This document shows, piece by piece, positions 465 to 6,289 of a stretch of 6,289 bases of DNA (positions are counted from its first letter, which is position 1; each line of letters starts with the position of its first letter). Location of the stretch: assembly GCA_903921965.1 (NCBI GenBank), contig CAIXSE010000305.1, positions 1 through 6,289 of the forward strand. The letters run 5' to 3'. This DNA is from an uncultured Thermoleophilia bacterium (GTDB lineage: Bacteria > Actinomycetota > Thermoleophilia > UBA2241). The translations under genes were made by a program, and so were the position numbers. The notes beneath the pieces are model-generated. The model was given only the letters and a program-made list of their open reading frames with translations, searched no databases and was not told the origin of the DNA.

Positions 465-968
465 TCACGTCGCGAAGCTCAGGTACGGTCGCCAGCTCTC
501 GTGGATTTGGTCCACGTGCATGGAGACGAAGTCGCCGGGCTCCGGCGGCCGCGGCTTGCGCGCCAGGCGCAGGCCGGCGGCGTGTGCCGGCCTGTCCCCC
601 TTCTTGCGGTTGCACGGGGCGCACGAGGTGACGAGGTTGTCCCACGTGTCGGCACCGCCCTTGGAGCGCGGCACCACGTGGTCGACGGTGAGGTGGCGCT
701 CGCTGCCGCAGTACTGGCAGCGGTGGCGGTCGCGGGCGAAGACGGCGCGGCGGGAGATGCGCGCGCCCGCACGCCGGCGCGGGAGGGTGACGTAGGTGTT
801 CAGACGGATGACGGAGGGCAGCTCGTGCGAGGTGCGCTCGCTGCGGTACGTGCTGCCGGCGTGCTCGAGCACCTCGGCCTTGTCCTTGAGGAGCAGCACC
901 AGTGCACGACGCACGCTGCAGACGTTCAGCGGCTCGTAGGTGGTGTTCAAGACAAGCACCTTCCGCAT
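465..968 (-). CDS. HNH endonuclease-like protein, 167 residues
   Basis: This is an HNH-family protein with a treble-clef zinc/metal nuclease fold. Visible motifs are C84-x2-C87 (CQYC), the D96-H97 pair in VDHVVPRSKGG (95-105), N111, then C116-x2-C119 followed by N120. All four zinc cysteines and the catalytic histidine/asparagine set are present, so it looks intact. The N-terminal 60 residues (starting MRKVLVLNTTYEPLNVCSVRRA) match the N-terminal extension common to a widespread stand-alone bacterial HNH family whose cellular target is not established. The start is ATG at 968-966; a longer upstream extension in this frame is unlikely because the family begins MR-VL-LN-TYEPL here and because the extension would overlap the divergent rarA. 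There is no Shine-Dalgarno; a promoter-like element ends 8 bases before the ATG. It is divergent from rarA, with 76 bases between the starts. There is no methyltransferase or phage gene beside it, so a restriction or homing role is not supported. Confidence 0.9.
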   Translation of the reverse strand: MRKVLVLNTTYEPLNVCSVRRALVLLLKDKAEVLEHAGSTYRSERTSHELPSVIRLNTYVTLPRRRAGARISRRAVFARDRHRCQYCGSERHLTVDHVVPRSKGGADTWDNLVTSCAPCNRKKGDRPAHAAGLRLARKPRPPEPGDFVSMHVDQIHESWRPYLSFAT

Positions 969-976
969 CGTGGACG

Positions 977-1044: not shown

Positions 1045-2400
1045 GTGGACCTCTTCTCCCTGAGCGACGAGCAGGTCGCGGCCGAGGCGCCGCTGGCGGC
1101 GCGCATGCGGCCGCGCACCCTCGAGGAGTTCGCCGGGCAGGAGCACATCGTCGGGCCCGGCACCGTCCTGCGTGCGGCCGTCGAGGGCGGCGAGCTGTTC
1201 AGCATGGTCTTCTTCGGGCCGCCCGGCTGCGGCAAGACGACGCTCGCGCGCCTCATCGCCGCCCAGACCGGCGCGCGCCTCGTGCAGCTCTCGGCCGTGA
1301 GCTCGGGGACGGCCGACGTCCGGGCCGCGATCCAGGGCGCGCGCGAGGCGCGCGCCCTCGGCGCGGCCCGGACCGTCCTGTTCATCGACGAGATCCACCG
1401 CTTCAACAAGGCGCAGCAGGACGCCCTGCTCCCCGCGATCGAAGACGGCATCGTCGCGCTCATCGGGGCGACCACCGAGAACCCCTACTTCGAGGTCAAC
1501 TCGGCGCTTCTCTCCCGTTGCCAGCTCTACCGCTTCGAGCCGCTCCCGGCGGAGACGGTGGAGCGGGTGGTGCAGGCCGCGCTGGACGACGAGGAGCGCG
1601 GCCTCGGCGGCAGGGGCGTGACGCTCGGCCCCGGCGGCTCCGCCTTCCTGGCCGAGGTCTCCCGCGGCGACGCGCGCGTCGCGCTCAACGCGCTCGAGAC
1701 CGCCTGGCGCTCGCGTGCGGCCGGCGCGCCGGGGGCGCCCGTCACCCTCACCGTCGACGACCTCCGCGACGCCGCCCAGAAGAGCCCGGTCTCCTACGAC
1801 CGCGACGACGCCCACTACGACACCATCTCGGCGTTCATCAAGAGCATGCGCGGCAGCGACCCCGACGCGGCCGTGTACTACCTCGCCTCGATGATCGCCG
1901 GCGGCGAGGACCCGCGCTTCATCGCGCGGCGCATGATCGTGTTCGCCAGCGAAGACGTCGGCAACGCCGACCCGCGCGCGCTCGAAGTGGCCGTCGCGGC
2001 CTCCCGCGCGGTCGAGTGGGTCGGTCTGCCGGAGTGCCGCATCAACCTGAGCCAGGCGGCCACGTACCTCGCCATCGCGCCCAAGAGCAACGCGGCGTAC
2101 AAGGCCATCGACGCCGCGCTCGACGACGTACGGCGGCAGGGCAACCTCGCGCCGCCGCCGCACCTGCGCAGCGCCAACTACCGGGGGGCGAAGCAGCTCG
2201 GCCACGGCGAGGGCTACGAGTACCCGCACGCGCACGGCGGCTGGGTCGCGCGGCAGTATCTTCCGGACGAGCTCTCAGGCCGCCGCTACTACGTGCCGAT
2301 ACGCGGGGTCGAGCGGAGGATGGCCGACCACCTCGAAGAAGAGAGACGGCGGGCCGCCGGCCCGTCTGGGCCCGCCGGGACCGGAGCTGCGGATGAGTAG
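1045..2400 (+). CDS. rarA: Replication-associated recombination protein A, AAA+ ATPase (RarA/MgsA)
   Basis: RarA is a cytoplasmic AAA+ ATPase of the clamp-loader/RuvB clade that acts at stalled replication forks and DNA ends. This 451-residue protein has the full set of motifs: Walker A GPPGCGKT (58-65), Walker B FIDEIHRF (113-120), sensor 1 GATTENP (141-147), the arginine finger in LLSRC (R158) and sensor 2 GDAR (208-211). The C-terminal oligomerisation region is typical, with KSMRGSDPDAAVYYLA (266-281), FIARRMIVFASEDVGNADP (292-310) and QLGHGEGYEYPH (384-395). Length is normal for the family. GTG at 1045 is chosen over the ATG at 940 because family members begin (M)DLF- just before the PLAARMRPRTLEEF block, the ATG at 940 would overlap the HNH coding region, and TATACT sits 6 bases upstream. 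The next gene starts 8 bases before the rarA stop, indicating co-translation. Confidence 0.96.
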   Translation: MDLFSLSDEQVAAEAPLAARMRPRTLEEFAGQEHIVGPGTVLRAAVEGGELFSMVFFGPPGCGKTTLARLIAAQTGARLVQLSAVSSGTADVRAAIQGAREARALGAARTVLFIDEIHRFNKAQQDALLPAIEDGIVALIGATTENPYFEVNSALLSRCQLYRFEPLPAETVERVVQAALDDEERGLGGRGVTLGPGGSAFLAEVSRGDARVALNALETAWRSRAAGAPGAPVTLTVDDLRDAAQKSPVSYDRDDAHYDTISAFIKSMRGSDPDAAVYYLASMIAGGEDPRFIARRMIVFASEDVGNADPRALEVAVAASRAVEWVGLPECRINLSQAATYLAIAPKSNAAYKAIDAALDDVRRQGNLAPPPHLRSANYRGAKQLGHGEGYEYPHAHGGWVARQYLPDELSGRRYYVPIRGVERRMADHLEEERRRAAGPSGPAGTGAADE

Positions 2401-2788
2401 TCTGGCAATCACGATCGTGCTGTTCGTCGTCATCGCCCTCGTCGCGCTGGCGGTGGTCTGGTGGTACGCCAGCAAGGTGAAGCGCGAGCTGGACGACTCG
2501 GCGGCGATCGTCGCCGGGGCGCGCGGCGTCATCGACCTGCGCCCCGACAGCGTGGCGCAGCTCCGCGCGCTCAGCTCCGAGCCCATCCTCATGAAGCAGA
2601 GCGAGGAGGGCGTGCGCGTGCAGATCGACCAGCGGCCCATGATGCCGCTGCGCGCGTTCCTCGGCAAAGACGTCGCCGGGGCGCTCCAGGAGGCCGCCGG
2701 CGAAGTGTCCGAACGCTACGGCGTGAAGTGGGTCGTGCTCGTCGACTCCAGCGACCCGGAGCGCGTGCGCATCCAGCGCCTGGCGTGA
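2393..2788 (+). CDS. Small membrane-anchored protein of unknown function, 131 residues
   Basis: One strong N-terminal membrane segment (about residues 5-24, LAITIVLFVVIALVALAVVWWYAS) is followed by a short basic stretch KVKRE (28-32), then a soluble domain of about 100 residues, probably cytoplasmic by the positive-inside rule. The soluble part looks like mixed alpha/beta: a helix (ALQEAAGEVSERYG) and a strand-like WVVLVD near the C-terminus. I do not recognise a family. The ATG start overlaps the end of rarA by 8 bases and has GGAG (2383-2386) 6 bases upstream, so translational coupling to rarA is likely. In several Gram-positive genomes rarA is followed by small membrane proteins (DUF948, YtxH-like) and then alaS. 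This gene occupies the DUF948-like position, but I cannot see DUF948 sequence features in it. No cysteine is present. Confidence 0.85.
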   Translation: MSSLAITIVLFVVIALVALAVVWWYASKVKRELDDSAAIVAGARGVIDLRPDSVAQLRALSSEPILMKQSEEGVRVQIDQRPMMPLRAFLGKDVAGALQEAAGEVSERYGVKWVVLVDSSDPERVRIQRLA

Positions 2789-2794
2789 GCACTT

Positions 2795-2810
2795 CGTCCC
2801 GGCAGGGACG
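2795..2810 (+). other. Small perfect hairpin just after the 131-residue gene
   Basis: CGTCCC, a GGCA loop and GGGACG form a perfect 6-bp stem starting 6 bases after the stop codon at 2788. There is no T run after it, so as a terminator it is weak. It could equally be a chance hairpin in GC-rich DNA. Confidence 0.3.
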
Positions 2811-2813
2811 CGG

Positions 2814-2831
2814 TGTATACAGGACTGTACA
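2814..2831 (+). promoter_or_regulatory. Two palindromes one helical turn apart, overlapping -10-like hexamers
   Basis: TGTATACA (2814-2821) is a perfect 8-bp palindrome and TGTACA (2826-2831) a perfect 6-bp palindrome; their centres are 11 bases apart. A second symmetry, TACAG-GA-CTGTA (2818-2829), joins them. -10-like TATACA (2816-2821) and TACACT (2828-2833) overlap the same bases, with no clear -35. This AT-richer spot in the spacer before the YtxH-like gene is the best candidate for its promoter and an operator. The regulator is unknown. Confidence 0.4.
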
Positions 2832-2870
2832 CTGGTAAAGGGAACGGTCCTTTCTTCCGAAGAACAGACC

Positions 2871-2898
2871 ACCGGACCCGCGTTCCTGCGCGGCCGGT
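2871..2898 (+). other. Stem-loop in the leader of the YtxH-like gene
   Basis: ACCGG + CCGCG (with a 2-base AC bulge between), loop TTCCTG, then CGCGG + CCGGT make a 10-bp stem ending 20 bases before the Shine-Dalgarno. There is no T tract. It could be a leader structure for mRNA stability or translation, or chance in GC-rich sequence. Confidence 0.3.
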
Positions 2899-2918
2899 CC
2901 GTCGCTGGCTACCGCCCT

Positions 2919-2924
2919 AGGAGG
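2919..2924 (+). promoter_or_regulatory. Consensus Shine-Dalgarno AGGAGG of the YtxH-like gene
   Basis: AGGAGG lies 5 bases before ATG 2930 but only 2 bases before the in-frame GTG at 2927. The spacing decides for the ATG. It is the strongest ribosome-binding site in the window. Confidence 0.85.
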
Positions 2925-2929
2925 CTGTG

Positions 2930-5008
2930 ATGAAGGGGTTCTTCAAGGTCCTGCTGGGACTTGGGATCGGGGCGGTCATCGGCGTCCTGTTCGCCCCCAA
3001 GAGCGGCAAGGAGCTGCGCAAGCAGCTCGTCGGGACGGCGACGCGCAAGACGCTCCCCCCTCCGCCTCCGCTGCACGAGACGGCCCGTGACTGGGTGCCG
3101 CCGGTGGCCGAGCCCGAGCCGGTCTTCGAGCCCGAGCCGGTCTTCGAGCCCGAGCCGGTCTTCGAGCCCGAGCCGGATGAGGAGGTCGTGGCGTTCGAGG
3201 TGGCGGCGGTCGTGGAGACCGAGCTCGCCTGGGAGCCCGAGCCGGTCTTCGAGCCTGCCGAGGCCGAGGCGGTCATCGAGGAGACCGTGATCCGCGAAGA
3301 TCGCGTCATCACCGACGAAGGCGTGGTCGAGGACATCGTCACCATCGAGGAACGCGTGATCACCTCCGAGGGTGACGTGCTCGAGGAGACGGTGCTGCAG
3401 GAGGAGACCACCGTCATCGAAGAGCTCGTCGTCGAGGAAGAGCCGGTCGTCGTCGAGCAGCCTGTCGAGCCCGTCGTGGCGGAAGAGCCCGAGGACGTGG
3501 ACGACCTGCGCGCGCGCATCGAAGCCACGCGCGCCGAGATCGAGACGTCGCTGGCCGAGCCGTTCGGTGGCGCCACGCTCACCGAGGACATCGGCGAGGC
3601 CGCTCCCGCCGCCGACGCCCTGATAGCGGAGGCGCTCGGGGGCGGGTCGTACGTGGTCGAAGAGACGGTCGTCCGCGAGACCGTGCTCGAGGATGACGGC
3701 GGCCTGCCCGTCGTCGAGGAGACGGTCGTCGAAGAGACCGTCGCCGCCGGGGTGTCCGCAGACGAGGTGGTCGTGGAGGACGTGGTCGTCCGCGAGACCG
3801 TCCTCGAGGAGCAGGAGACGCCGCCCCCGGTTGCCGCCGAGGAGCACGAGCCGGTCCTCGTCTGGCCGGATGCCGGCGACGATGCCGCTCCGGTCCAGGA
3901 GGCACCGGAGTCGTCCGGTCAGGCGGTCGAGACGGAGATCCTCGACGAGCAGCCCGAGGCGCCGCGCGCGTGGGACATGTGGCGCGATGAGGAGGAGAAC
4001 GAGCAGCCCGCAGGCGAGGAGGCGCAGGTGGCGACCGGCGAGCCCGCCGCCGCTGAGGCCGCCGACGTGGCCTACGATGTGTTCGCGGGGCCCGCTCTGC
4101 CGGCGCCCGAGGCGGAGCCCGAGTCCGTCGCTGCGGTGGCCGAGCAGCCGGCCGCGTTCGCGCCGCCCGAGGCCCCGGCCGCGTGGACGCCTGGACCGGT
4201 CGCCGAGCCCGAGCCGGCCGCGTGGACGCCTGGACCGGTCGCCGAGCCCGAGCCGGCCGCGTGGACGCCTGGACCGGTCGCCGAGCCCGAGCCGGCCGCG
4301 TGGACGCCTGGACCGGTCGCCGAGGCGGCTCCGGAGCCGCCGGCGCTCGAGGAGACGGTGATCGAGGCGGCCGCTGCGGCGCCGCCGCCCGAGGCGCCGG
4401 TCGCCGAGACCCTCGCCGAGGCCGAAGCGCCCGCCGCGGAGACGCCTGTCGCCGAGGAGCGGGCCGTGTGGGCGGCAGAGCCGCCGGCGATGGCCAGGCC
4501 GGTGTGGGGGGACACGACGCCGGCCGCGCCTGCGTGGGGCGACGTCCCGGCCGCGGCCGCCGAGCCCGAGCCCGAACCCGCCGTCGTGGAGCCCGCGGTC
4601 GTGGAGCCCGCTGTCGCCCGGCCCCTCGCCGCGGCACCTCTTGCGGCGGCGCCGGAGCCCGAACCGCCGGAGCCCGCCGTCGTGGCGTCCGAGCCGGAGC
4701 CCGCGGTCGTGGAGCCCGCTGTCGCCCGGCCCCTCGCCGCGGCACCTCTTGCGGCGGCGCCGGAGCCCGAACCGCCGGAGCCGACCGGGCCCAGGGACAC
4801 CGGCGCCATCGACCAGGCCGAGATGCGGCGCCGCATCGAGGAGACCCGTGCGCGCCTGAAGGCCAAGGCCTTCGACGCCATGATGAGCGGAGAGGCCGCG
4901 CTGCTGGGCCGTGACGGTGATTCCTCGGTGCCGCGTCACGACGACATCAAGCTGGACGGCGACGTGGAGAGCACCATCGACGAGTCGCTGTCGCAGGAAG
5001 AGTACTGA
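2930..5008 (+). CDS. YtxH-like membrane-anchored, acidic repeat-rich protein, 692 residues
   Basis: Residues 1-33 (MKGFFKVLLGLGIGAVIGVL, then FAPKSGKELRKQL) match the YtxH pattern: one glycine-rich membrane helix, then APKSGKE-R. Ordinary YtxH proteins are around 100 residues; here about 600 extra residues follow. In order: a proline stretch (43-47); VFEPEP repeats (61-83, 102-109); a Val/Glu/Thr-rich block (115-188) with a doubled RVIT unit (125-159); a short charged helix DLRARIEATRAEIETSLAEPF (192-212); a second Val/Glu/Thr block (242-295); Ala/Pro/Glu-rich sequence with four AAWTPGPV units (about 417-465) and a 36-residue duplication; a second helix EMRRRIEETRARLKAKAF (631-648); and an acidic tail ending EEY. 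I see no cysteine, and no lysine between residues 40 and 644. The helices resemble the RxxIExTRAxL pattern of DUF3618-type proteins. The function is unknown; an extended membrane-tethered scaffold or spacer is inference. The gene is followed by a strong terminator. Confidence 0.85.
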   Translation: MKGFFKVLLGLGIGAVIGVLFAPKSGKELRKQLVGTATRKTLPPPPPLHETARDWVPPVAEPEPVFEPEPVFEPEPVFEPEPDEEVVAFEVAAVVETELAWEPEPVFEPAEAEAVIEETVIREDRVITDEGVVEDIVTIEERVITSEGDVLEETVLQEETTVIEELVVEEEPVVVEQPVEPVVAEEPEDVDDLRARIEATRAEIETSLAEPFGGATLTEDIGEAAPAADALIAEALGGGSYVVEETVVRETVLEDDGGLPVVEETVVEETVAAGVSADEVVVEDVVVRETVLEEQETPPPVAAEEHEPVLVWPDAGDDAAPVQEAPESSGQAVETEILDEQPEAPRAWDMWRDEEENEQPAGEEAQVATGEPAAAEAADVAYDVFAGPALPAPEAEPESVAAVAEQPAAFAPPEAPAAWTPGPVAEPEPAAWTPGPVAEPEPAAWTPGPVAEPEPAAWTPGPVAEAAPEPPALEETVIEAAAAAPPPEAPVAETLAEAEAPAAETPVAEERAVWAAEPPAMARPVWGDTTPAAPAWGDVPAAAAEPEPEPAVVEPAVVEPAVARPLAAAPLAAAPEPEPPEPAVVASEPEPAVVEPAVARPLAAAPLAAAPEPEPPEPTGPRDTGAIDQAEMRRRIEETRARLKAKAFDAMMSGEAALLGRDGDSSVPRHDDIKLDGDVESTIDESLSQEEY
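3110..3176 (+). repeat. 18-bp tandem repeat (EPEPVF), 3.7 copies
   Basis: The unit GAGCCCGAGCCGGTCTTC begins at 3110, 3128 and 3146, with a 13-base partial copy at 3164-3176. Copies are identical, and a further isolated exact copy lies at 3233-3250. The period is 6 codons, so copy-number change keeps the frame. Confidence 0.97.
3302..3406 (+). repeat. Diverged protein-level duplication (RVIT unit)
   Basis: RVITDEGVVEDIVTIEE (residues 125-141) is followed directly by RVITSEGDVLEETVLQEE (142-159). The two align with one inserted residue and conservative changes. DNA identity is lower than in the other arrays, so this looks like an older, selected repeat. Confidence 0.7.
3667..3810 (+). repeat. 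Two 27-bp copies encoding VVRETVLE, 117 bp apart
   Basis: Bases 3667-3693 and 3784-3810 differ at one position (G/C in a third-codon position) and encode VVRETVLED and VVRETVLEE. Related VVEETVVEETV sequence lies between them. The spacing of 117 bases is 39 codons. Confidence 0.85.
4175..4324 (+). repeat. 39-bp tandem repeat (AAWTPGPVAEPEP), about 3.8 copies
   Basis: GCGTGGACGCC recurs at 4181, 4220, 4259 and 4298. The copies are identical at the DNA level across 150 bases, and the period is 13 codons. Perfect identity including third positions implies recent expansion or homogenisation. Confidence 0.97.
4588..4782 (+). repeat. 87-bp perfect direct repeat with 21-bp spacer
   Basis: Bases 4588-4674 and 4696-4782 are identical over all 87 positions. 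The offset is 108 bases (36 codons), so the reading frame is kept. The copy encodes EPAVVEPAVARPLAAAPLAA followed by APEPEPPEP. It looks like a recent in-frame segmental duplication. Confidence 0.95.
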
Positions 5009-5030
5009 CGGCGGCGGTCTGACAGAGGGG

Positions 5031-5073
5031 CGACGAGGGGGGCCGGCGCCGTGAGGCGCCGGCCCCCTCGTCG
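5031..5073 (+). terminator. Strong stem-loop with GUGA tetraloop, between convergent genes
   Basis: The left arm (5031-5050) and right arm (5055-5073) pair over about 19 bp with one bulged G in the run of six. The closing CC-GTGA-GG is a GNRA-type tetraloop in the plus-strand RNA. No T run follows, as is common for GC-rich actinobacterial terminators. It starts 22 bases after the stop of the YtxH-like gene. Near-symmetry means it can also fold in the opposite transcript, though the loop there is UCAC. Confidence 0.85.
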
Positions 5074-5105
5074 TCCCGGCTGTCGCCGCCCGCCCGTCAC
5101 CTTCT

Positions 5106-5144
5106 GGCGGCCCGGCCCGGGTGTGGCCCTCCGGGCACGCCGCC
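5106..5144. other. Imperfect GC hairpin in the convergent gap
   Basis: GGCGGC (5106-5111) pairs with GCCGCC (5139-5144), and CCCGG (5116-5120) with CCGGG (5131-5135), around unpaired bases. It lies about 75 bases beyond the minus-strand stop at 5219 and could help end that transcript. GC-rich DNA gives such pairings by chance. Apart from this and the stem-loop at 5031-5073, I see nothing in the gap 5009-5218. Confidence 0.25.
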
Positions 5145-5218
5145 GGCCGGTCCGCCCGAGCTCGGCCGCGTTGCCGGTGCTCAGCCTCCCCGCCCGTACA
5201 GGGCCTCCCCGGCCGGAC

Positions 5219-6289
5219 TCAGCCGGCCCTGCCGCCTCCGGCGCTCCGAGGGCGGCGGCTGCGCGGGCGGCCGGCCGCCGGGCGCCTGCGGCGCGGCGGC
5301 CGCGGCTCGCTGGTGAGCTGGGCCGCCCACTCTTCGTCGCTCATGCGGTCGGGGCCGCGCCGGTCGATTGCCGGCCAGCTGAGGGCGCCCGGCGCCAGCC
5401 CGCGCTCGTGGAGCGCGTGGGCCAGCACGCCGGCCGTGGACACGAACAGCAGCAGCACCAGCACGGTCCCCGCGGGGATGGTGCGGTTCTCCAGCAACAG
5501 GAAGAAGTACCACCACACGTTCACGCCCAGCCCGAGCAGCGTCGCGTAGTAGATGAGCACGATGGGGATCGTGACGAGCCCCAGGTATGCGGGCAGGATC
5601 GAGCGCATCCACCCTCCCGGCCGGGTGAGAGGCCAGAGCACGGCCGCCGGCAGCACGAAGAGCACCGCGTAGGGGTCCACGAGCAGGGTGATGACGGCGA
5701 TCAGCACCAGGATGGCGTGCGCCACGAAGATGATGGCCCGCGGGTCGGTGTGGACGCGGCGGCGCAACCTCCGTTCCACCGCGACCGCGTAGCCGTACGC
5801 GAGCACGAGGAGCGCGACGAGGATCGCGACGCGCAGGTAGCGCGGGTTCATGGCGAGGTGGGAGTCGGGCGGGATGACGGCCCCGGGGCTCCTGGGCAGC
5901 TGGCCGACGAGGTTGGCGAGGTAGACGATCGCGAGCAGCACGAGCCAGGGGGCGTAGTGCAGGCCCGCGCGGAGCCACGCCGGCTGCAGCTCGACGCGGG
6001 CGCGGCGGCAGCGGGCGAACAGGTCGAAGGTGACGGCCAGCAGCGGGAGGAGCCCGGCGGCCAGCATGAGTGCGAGCGAGCCGCCGGGCAGGGTGCGCGT
6101 GTGCGTGAGCGAGATGGTGCCGCCGCTGCGCGCCCCGGGCGCCGGGGCCTGGTCGATGGCCATGAGCATCCCCTGTGCCACGGTGCCCATCTTGGTGAGC
6201 GTCTCGGTCGACACGTTCGCGAGCGTGTCCTGCTGGGGCGGGACGTGCTCGCCGGCGGCGGAGATGGTGATGGCCGGCGCCCCTGCGGC
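5219..6289 (-). CDS. M28 family peptidase-like protein with C-terminal membrane domain, partial (start beyond right edge)
   Basis: The 356 visible C-terminal codons stay open to the window edge. The first 45 or so residues, with APAITISAAGE (4-14), a histidine (15), and QDTLANVSTETLTKMG (20-35) running to AID, resemble the end of M28 zinc aminopeptidase domains, where the last metal-binding His precedes a DTL-NVS-ETL-MG stretch. The other zinc ligands would lie outside the window. After LPGGSLALM comes a membrane domain of about seven helices, roughly 68-91, 113-132, 152-171, 183-205, 206-222, 230-255 and 273-293. The loop FDLFARCRRARVE after the first helix matches what I recall of actinobacterial M28-plus-membrane proteins. 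The tail holds DRMSDEEWAAQL, then about 28 Arg/Pro/Gly/Ala-rich residues. A GTG at 6214 could be misread as the start, but homology-like sequence continues upstream. Substrate unknown; the peptidase domain is expected on the extracytoplasmic side. Confidence 0.72.
   Translation of the reverse strand, partial: AAGAPAITISAAGEHVPPQQDTLANVSTETLTKMGTVAQGMLMAIDQAPAPGARSGGTISLTHTRTLPGGSLALMLAAGLLPLLAVTFDLFARCRRARVELQPAWLRAGLHYAPWLVLLAIVYLANLVGQLPRSPGAVIPPDSHLAMNPRYLRVAILVALLVLAYGYAVAVERRLRRRVHTDPRAIIFVAHAILVLIAVITLLVDPYAVLFVLPAAVLWPLTRPGGWMRSILPAYLGLVTIPIVLIYYATLLGLGVNVWWYFFLLLENRTIPAGTVLVLLLFVSTAGVLAHALHERGLAPGALSWPAIDRRGPDRMSDEEWAAQLTSEPRPPRRRRPAAGRPRSRRPRSAGGGRAG

Follow-up and report, generated by a model that had tools for sequence, protein, structure and literature searches.

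HubP, FimV and PopZ are hub or landmark proteins known from proteobacteria. PopZ is, to our knowledge, not anchored in the membrane, and ZipA combines a membrane helix and a flexible linker with a C-terminal binding part. According to two papers, HubP and FimV feature a membrane helix, a long acidic cytoplasmic region of variable length and a conserved C-terminal part, and a c-di-GMP enzyme is bound by HubP through its GGDEF domain (PMC12918733, PMC9061725). A further paper treats a diguanylate cyclase together with a polar hub protein (PMC7033161). For PopZ, an acidic, proline-rich disordered region of -0.28 charge per residue between helical parts is reported, in which longer linkers are less charged and linker length is conserved (PMC9512792).

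Here, we describe a 692-residue protein of an uncultured Thermoleophilia bacterium, encoded in a stretch of 6,289 nucleotides that we refer to as the window. An earlier sequence-only reading of this DNA knew of no described protein with such a layout. The titles and opening lines of abstracts on YtxH, DUF3618, Thermoleophilia YtxH and DUF4388 regulators indeed hold no description of the protein or its layout, but HubP/FimV and PopZ share its kind of anatomy. Their defining domains were not found. At E up to 1, the protein has no match to LysM, which marks the periplasmic region of HubP/FimV (its own first helix begins at residue 2), to the C-terminal FimV/TPR domain in Pfam, to the PopZ family or to the C-terminal FtsZ-binding domain of ZipA, and NCBIfam likewise returns zero matches. 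Because these domains were not found, we place the protein outside the HubP/FimV and PopZ families, and membership of ZipA was rejected on the same grounds.

The window carries, in order, an HNH endonuclease gene (reverse strand), the DNA-repair gene rarA, a gene for a small membrane-anchored protein with no Pfam family above cut-off, the gene under study (hereafter the scaffold gene) and, again in reverse orientation, part of a membrane protein gene, namely its end (Table 1); no Rfam family, and hence no RNA leader, was found in it at the gathering threshold. The scaffold gene starts with ATG at 2930, preceded by AGGAGG at 2919-2924. Its product has a net charge of -127 and is dominated by alanine (126), glutamate (126), proline (98) and valine (84). 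It is cysteine-free, as had been claimed, and the accompanying claim that it is lysine-free is true of residues 41-643, with lysines present elsewhere (K40, K644, K646 and K674). A chance or untranslated frame is ruled out, since homologs keep both ends of the protein (126 others have both the N-terminal anchor and the C-terminal helix) and one of them, P0006, is 73% identical over residues 1-373. An antisense open frame of 676 codons also lies opposite the gene (2909-4939, reverse strand); it is probably a by-product of GC-rich codon use and is not counted as a gene.

Relatives were gathered in two ways. With residues 615-692 as a query and an E limit of 0.01, 137 proteins matched; 120 of them were listed, and protein-based figures below hold among these listed matches. 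A scan of a species-genome collection for RLK[AV]KAFD yielded 44 confirmed loci, 42 with titles naming actinobacterial groups (many Thermoleophilia) and two with titles naming unclassified bacteria. The protein search needs 5-residue words shared with the query and the genome scan needs its pattern, so the distribution is a lower bound. By the same logic, eight of the 12 invariant columns of the module alignment are present by selection, and the presence of the C-terminal module in all homologs carries no weight as evidence because the homologs were chosen by it. For comparison of layouts, seven loci with a contig starting inside the gene were excluded beforehand, which gave 158 sequences (the window, 37 loci and 120 proteins). 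We then left out P0079, which the helix C pattern in use did not retain, 11 GAF/GGDEF/TIR proteins and 19 sequences without an anchor by threshold, the last owing to a late start site, a frame broken upstream (L010, L041, L043) or a weakly hydrophobic anchor. The remaining 127 sequences are related, some near-identical, and one locus protein (L015) is the same as a database protein (P0118).

The N-terminus is YtxH-like, as originally recognized, though it falls 0.2 bits under the curated limit: Pfam YtxH (PF12732) matches residues 6-37 with 37.3 bits (E 3.9e-9) against a cut-off of 37.5, so that the protein is not a member by that standard. The precomputed family column lists PF12732 for 85 of the 120 module-search proteins listed (137 matched). 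The likeness to the family lies in a membrane helix that is rich in glycine and has PKSG and basic residues after it; the family model, however, spans 71 positions, and the helical second part of the 692-residue protein is hundreds of residues away. AlphaFold2 predicts a membrane helix at residues 2-20 and a membrane-proximal helix at 26-40, and the first of these would insert in the membrane.

Two similar charged helices had been singled out from the letters alone, RARIEATRAEI from residue 194 and RRRIEETRARL from residue 633. Both lie at exactly these positions and both are predicted to be helical (190-209 and 629-660); we term them helix A and helix C. Their kinship goes beyond chance, with a profile-profile probability of 92.4 (P 5.1e-7), and the score of the single A/C pair is reached in only 3 of 20000 shuffles. 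In the AlphaFold2 model of the full protein (mean pLDDT 49.2), 465 of 692 residues fall below a pLDDT of 50, and helices occur only at the anchor, helix A (blocks of 81-87), helix C and the tail (677-686). Helix A is kept in 123 of the 127 homologs with a detected anchor, themselves chosen by the C-terminal module, and is absent from P0034, P0062, P0064 and P0065. Of 143 linkers, 131 contain a strict helix A pattern, 130 of them once and one twice, and 12 lack it, against 0 of 143 reversed linkers and 0.0 expected from shuffles. While helix C starts 58-65 residues before the protein end in all 127, the distance from the start of helix A to that of helix C ranges from 79 to 861, and the distance from anchor to helix A also varies. 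The proposed tether with a length-variable linker between an anchor and two matched helices is thus kept across the family.

Weak Pfam traces of HalX and DUF3618 fall on helix A of the 692-residue protein. DUF3618 (PF12277) resembles the IEETR helix weakly, scoring 12.6 bits here and 19.6 in a short YtxH protein of the clade, both below its cut-off of 24.9; two of 19 module members match it, at best with E 0.15. The amphipathic moment of the helices does not exceed that of shuffles, and the charge patterns of helices A and C do not decide how the two would pair. The IEETR/IEEIR helix also occurs by itself in a 533-residue protein with no Pfam family (L088:1990-3591, reverse strand) and in a frame of 947 residues, possibly a run-on (L087:623-3466, reverse strand).

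Between these fixed parts, the linkers are not alignable yet remain acidic and proline-rich, with median fractions of 0.22 for glutamate, 0.15 for proline and 0.21 for alanine in the layout-comparison set and wide ranges (E 0.06-0.34, P 0.05-0.25). Predicted to be disordered in the 692-residue protein, they extend from 116 to 980 residues in the family and carry a median net charge of -0.235 per residue (range -0.33 to -0.09). The acidic fraction falls as the linker lengthens (rho -0.54 in 96 less redundant sequences; rho -0.61, n=59, in the largest clade and rho -0.52, p 0.08, n=12, in the second), a correlation in which shared ancestry is controlled in part only. Repeat arrays had been placed between the two helices. 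The WTP array and the 108-bp repeat do lie there, but the EPEPVF array precedes helix A. The further idea of repeated spacers as part of the layout applies to the window sequence and not to its homologs: copies of the 18-, 39- and 108-bp arrays are 100% identical at the DNA level (TRF), and the peptides of all three, including WTPGPV and ARPLAAAPLAAAP, are confined to the window sequence within the layout-comparison set, on which ground a conserved repeat array was rejected. Given DNA-identical copies seen only in this sequence, the arrays look like recent linker expansions or length changes.

Table 1. Features of the window; positions are counted from its first nucleotide.
Feature	Position	Strand	Basis
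HNH endonuclease gene	465-971	-	
rarA (MgsA)	1048..2400	+	Pfam MgsA_C 1.4e-65; syntenic neighbour of scaffold gene
Small N-terminally anchored protein, family not known	2393..2788	+	tblastn, between rarA and scaffold gene; syntenic in close relatives
5' element GTATACAGGACTGTACACTGGTAAAG...TTCTTCCGAAGAA	2815..2867	+	Present in 6/8 upstream regions aligned; single core pattern per genome in 6 genomes
Scaffold gene	2930..5008	+	692 aa; ORF with AGGAGG and homologs of same layout
YtxH-like anchor, residues 1-40	2930..3049	+	Pfam YtxH just under cut-off; AlphaFold2 helices 2-20, 26-40
Acidic linker 1, residues 41-186	3050..3487	+	Composition, low pLDDT; EPEPVF array inside
EPEPVF array, 18-bp unit	3109-3176	+	Before helix A, within linker 1
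Helix A, residues 190-212, DDLRARIEATRAEIETSLAEPF type	3497..3565	+	Alignment, pattern count, AlphaFold2 H190-209
Acidic linker 2, residues 213-624	3566..4801	+	Low pLDDT; length differs among homologs
39-bp tandem array, 3.8 copies, AWTPGPVAEPEP units	4175..4324	+	TRF; 100% identical
108-bp tandem array, 1.8 copies	4588..4782	+	TRF; 100% identical; peptide ARPLAAAPLAAAP
C-terminal module, residues 625-692	4802..5005	+	Helix C 629-660 and acidic tail helix 677-686; alignments, AlphaFold2, other carriers
Membrane protein gene, its end	5219-6214	-	Longer relative in L001 matches Peptidase_M28

The second of the two helical motifs opens a conserved module of ~65 residues that reaches the stop codon. 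Modelled alone (73 residues), it forms helices at 10-40 and 58-69 with a mean pLDDT of 75.8 and a pTM of 0.38; no solved structure matches its profile at E up to 1. Core residues like RLK[AS]KAFDAM are kept in all 34 loci that were found by profile and not by exact pattern. Judged by its carriers, this C-terminal segment is a portable module. Among the 120 proteins listed, it is borne by eight GAF-GGDEF proteins, one GAF protein (P0081) and two TIR proteins; the GAF and GGDEF assignments come from the precomputed column, with Pfam run directly for P0085 (GAF, GGDEF, HD_5). In all nine GAF-type proteins, which lack the strict helix A pattern, the module sits at the C end with a tail length of 62. 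It lies between two TIR stretches in P0097, and TIR_2 follows it in the close homolog P0006. These GAF-GGDEF and TIR carriers are database proteins without genomic context, and no such form occurs among the 44 loci or in the 34 profile-found loci, where the GGDEF motif was checked. A REC-DUF4388 response regulator (L083:4585-5550; REC 2.4e-26, DUF4388 3.7e-20) ends in a divergent module that, as a protein query, matches itself only; its gene is located between relA/spoT and, past a metallo-hydrolase gene, hisS. By position, length and similar start, with Pfam for one, this form occurs in four of 399 genomes from the class of one relative, three of which also encode the long scaffold protein. 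A PADLOC search returned no match for the 692-residue protein, which was accordingly rejected as a defence system, and weak TIR-type matches for P0006 and P0097.

The carriers also bear on the side of the membrane. Because GGDEF, response-regulator and TIR proteins are cytosolic kinds, and because four basic residues (K24, K27, R30, K31) follow the membrane helix, a cytosolic position of the linker and C end is the more likely one. A position in the wall or outside the cell is less likely for the same reason, and the bridge to the wall entertained by the sequence-only reading is not borne out by a module that ends GGDEF and response-regulator proteins and adjoins TIR domains.

The relatives document conserved ends and a conserved helix A, an acidic spacer that varies, a single strong copy in each genome, linkage to rarA and sharing of the module, and on their sequences the idea of a tether is well supported. 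From here, both the location of the protein and docking by its module are what we infer. At about an even chance of being right, we propose a membrane-tethered cytosolic hub that would work like HubP/FimV or PopZ, be built of unrelated parts and dock its clients via the shared module. Usually encoded once per genome, the hub would be held in the membrane by the YtxH-like helix with the remainder in the cytosol; the acidic, proline-rich and putatively disordered linker, whose length changes freely, would serve as flexible arm and spacer; and the binding elements would be helix A and the module at the C-terminus, which comprises basic helix C, a loop and an acidic tail helix, both elements being conserved. 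We suggest the module as docking element because it is also attached to signalling proteins of the GAF-GGDEF, REC-DUF4388 and TIR types. Clients bearing it may join the hub by module-module or module-helix A contact or, alternatively, hub and clients may meet through one common partner. Second-messenger and other signalling would then be concentrated at a membrane site, as HubP gathers a c-di-GMP enzyme and PopZ its clients, with the reach and fluidity of the assembly set by linker length and acidity. More tentatively, the family may represent an undescribed class of membrane hubs of Thermoleophilia-type Actinomycetota, in which a portable helix-loop-helix docking module and a matching helix, carried on a disordered tether of tunable length, recruit second-messenger, response-regulator and TIR proteins to a single site at the membrane, possibly into a condensate.

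The hub model leaves the linkage to rarA unexplained. This gene lies directly upstream in 37 of 44 loci, and the other seven contigs begin inside the scaffold gene. An HNH gene precedes rarA in 33 of the 37, and the small membrane protein gene stands between rarA and the scaffold gene in 13 of the 44 loci examined (both by tblastn at 1e-3). In 61 sampled genomes of the class, rarA is present in 58, of which 28 also have the module; in 26 of these 28 they are no more than a few kb apart on one contig, and in G003 and G035 they lie on separate contigs. Such linkage would fit a replication or repair tether that holds RarA or the fork near the membrane via helix A or the C-terminal module, with the signalling fusions incidental. 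We consider this reading unlikely. Thirty of the 58 rarA genomes lack the module (in G063 the contig ends soon after rarA), the fusions involve signalling rather than DNA-repair domains, and in close relatives a 5' element precedes the scaffold gene, which may on that account be expressed independently. In the stretches downstream of rarA in 20 module-free genomes (2.5 to 9.4 kb), the AlaS motif, the YtxH motif and the module profile were each found in none. Gene order rarA-alaS is familiar in Actinobacteria; with the AlaS motif at 0/20, it was rejected as the arrangement of module-free genomes here.

The 5' element consists of a GTATACAG..CTGTAGACTGGTAAAG-like sequence followed by TTCTTCCGAAG and contains a 13-base inverted repeat, TTCTTCCGAAGAA, at 2852-2864. 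Of eight upstream regions aligned, those of the window and L001, L003, L008, L009 and L030 have it, that of L010 has it in part, and in that of L014 it is not visible. Its core pattern occurs once per genome in six genomes, five of them sources of the alignment, with none in the backward control. In five of the six it lies between rarA and the scaffold gene, and in G003 it lies ~480 bases after rarA on a contig without the module. The element is possibly a promoter accompanied by an operator; scans of 2700-5200 for consensus promoters and terminators found neither, the promoter scan having missed the element.

Distribution across the class speaks to a second alternative. The module profile matches at E up to 0.001 in 49 of the 399 genomes and in none of the other 350; in 48, one match is strong (E 3.5e-18 or better), and the remaining genome, G098, shows the weaker response-regulator form alone. 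Every one of 15 genomes reached through loci matched, 12 of them just once at E up to 0.01. A ZipA-like division or pole tether, whose C-terminal module would bind FtsZ, SepF or another cytoskeletal partner and, borrowed by other proteins, bring these to the same site, shares its order of parts with ZipA and would agree with the single strong match in each of 48 genomes. We judge it rather improbable: at E up to 1, the protein matches none of the ZipA, FtsA, SepF and DivIVA families, and absence from 350 of 399 genomes argues that it is not a core division factor in the class. A mobile origin was likewise rejected after searches of plasmids with the small neighbour, of phages with the whole protein and of viral contigs with the module gave no match (in the last, 162 stretches matched a pattern and none was confirmed).

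In nine loci, the long gene is followed 6-8 kb downstream by a gene for a short YtxH protein (e.g., L034:15441-15734 and L037:15182-15478), and such a protein is also encoded in three more sequence pieces, two of them from genomes of counted loci. These short proteins combine a similar anchor with an acidic linker of small length and a single DLKARIEETR-type helix close to the end. Two were scored against PF12732, one passing (43.9 bits) and one reaching 36 bits; a short protein as query found 20 proteins, the first identical to it where aligned. By this resemblance the short protein looks like a minimal form of the long layout, and the long form may be a stretched short YtxH, as both have the anchor and an IEETR helix. 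An ordinary YtxH-type protein with a passive linker, in which the arm is filler and the helices bind only membrane or pair with themselves, would fit these short relatives and the recent duplications in the arrays, but is doubtful at best, as the module also occurs on GAF-GGDEF, TIR and REC-DUF4388 proteins and its core, kept in similar form in every profile-found locus, is in our judgement conserved beyond the seeming need of a membrane-binding helix.

If the hub reading is true, the hub design arose again, in parallel, from a YtxH-like anchor in a deep and mostly uncultured actinobacterial group. The natural series of linkers between fixed ends would provide a test of how length and charge tune such assemblies, and the short module would be a handle for finding client proteins from sequence alone.

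Finally, HubP/FimV and PopZ are, by analogy, the nearest working parallels to the 692-residue protein. Like HubP/FimV, its family has a membrane helix, a conserved C-terminal part and between them a long, acidic region of variable length, here on the presumably cytosolic side. Unlike HubP/FimV, it belongs to another phylum, the helix beginning at residue 2 leaves no room for a periplasmic LysM region, and the hub and its proposed clients carry the same module. With PopZ it shares an acidic, proline-rich region predicted to be disordered, a similar charge density (median -0.235 against -0.28 per residue) and the tendency of longer linkers to be less charged; unlike in PopZ, whose linker length is conserved, the length of the linker varies across the family.
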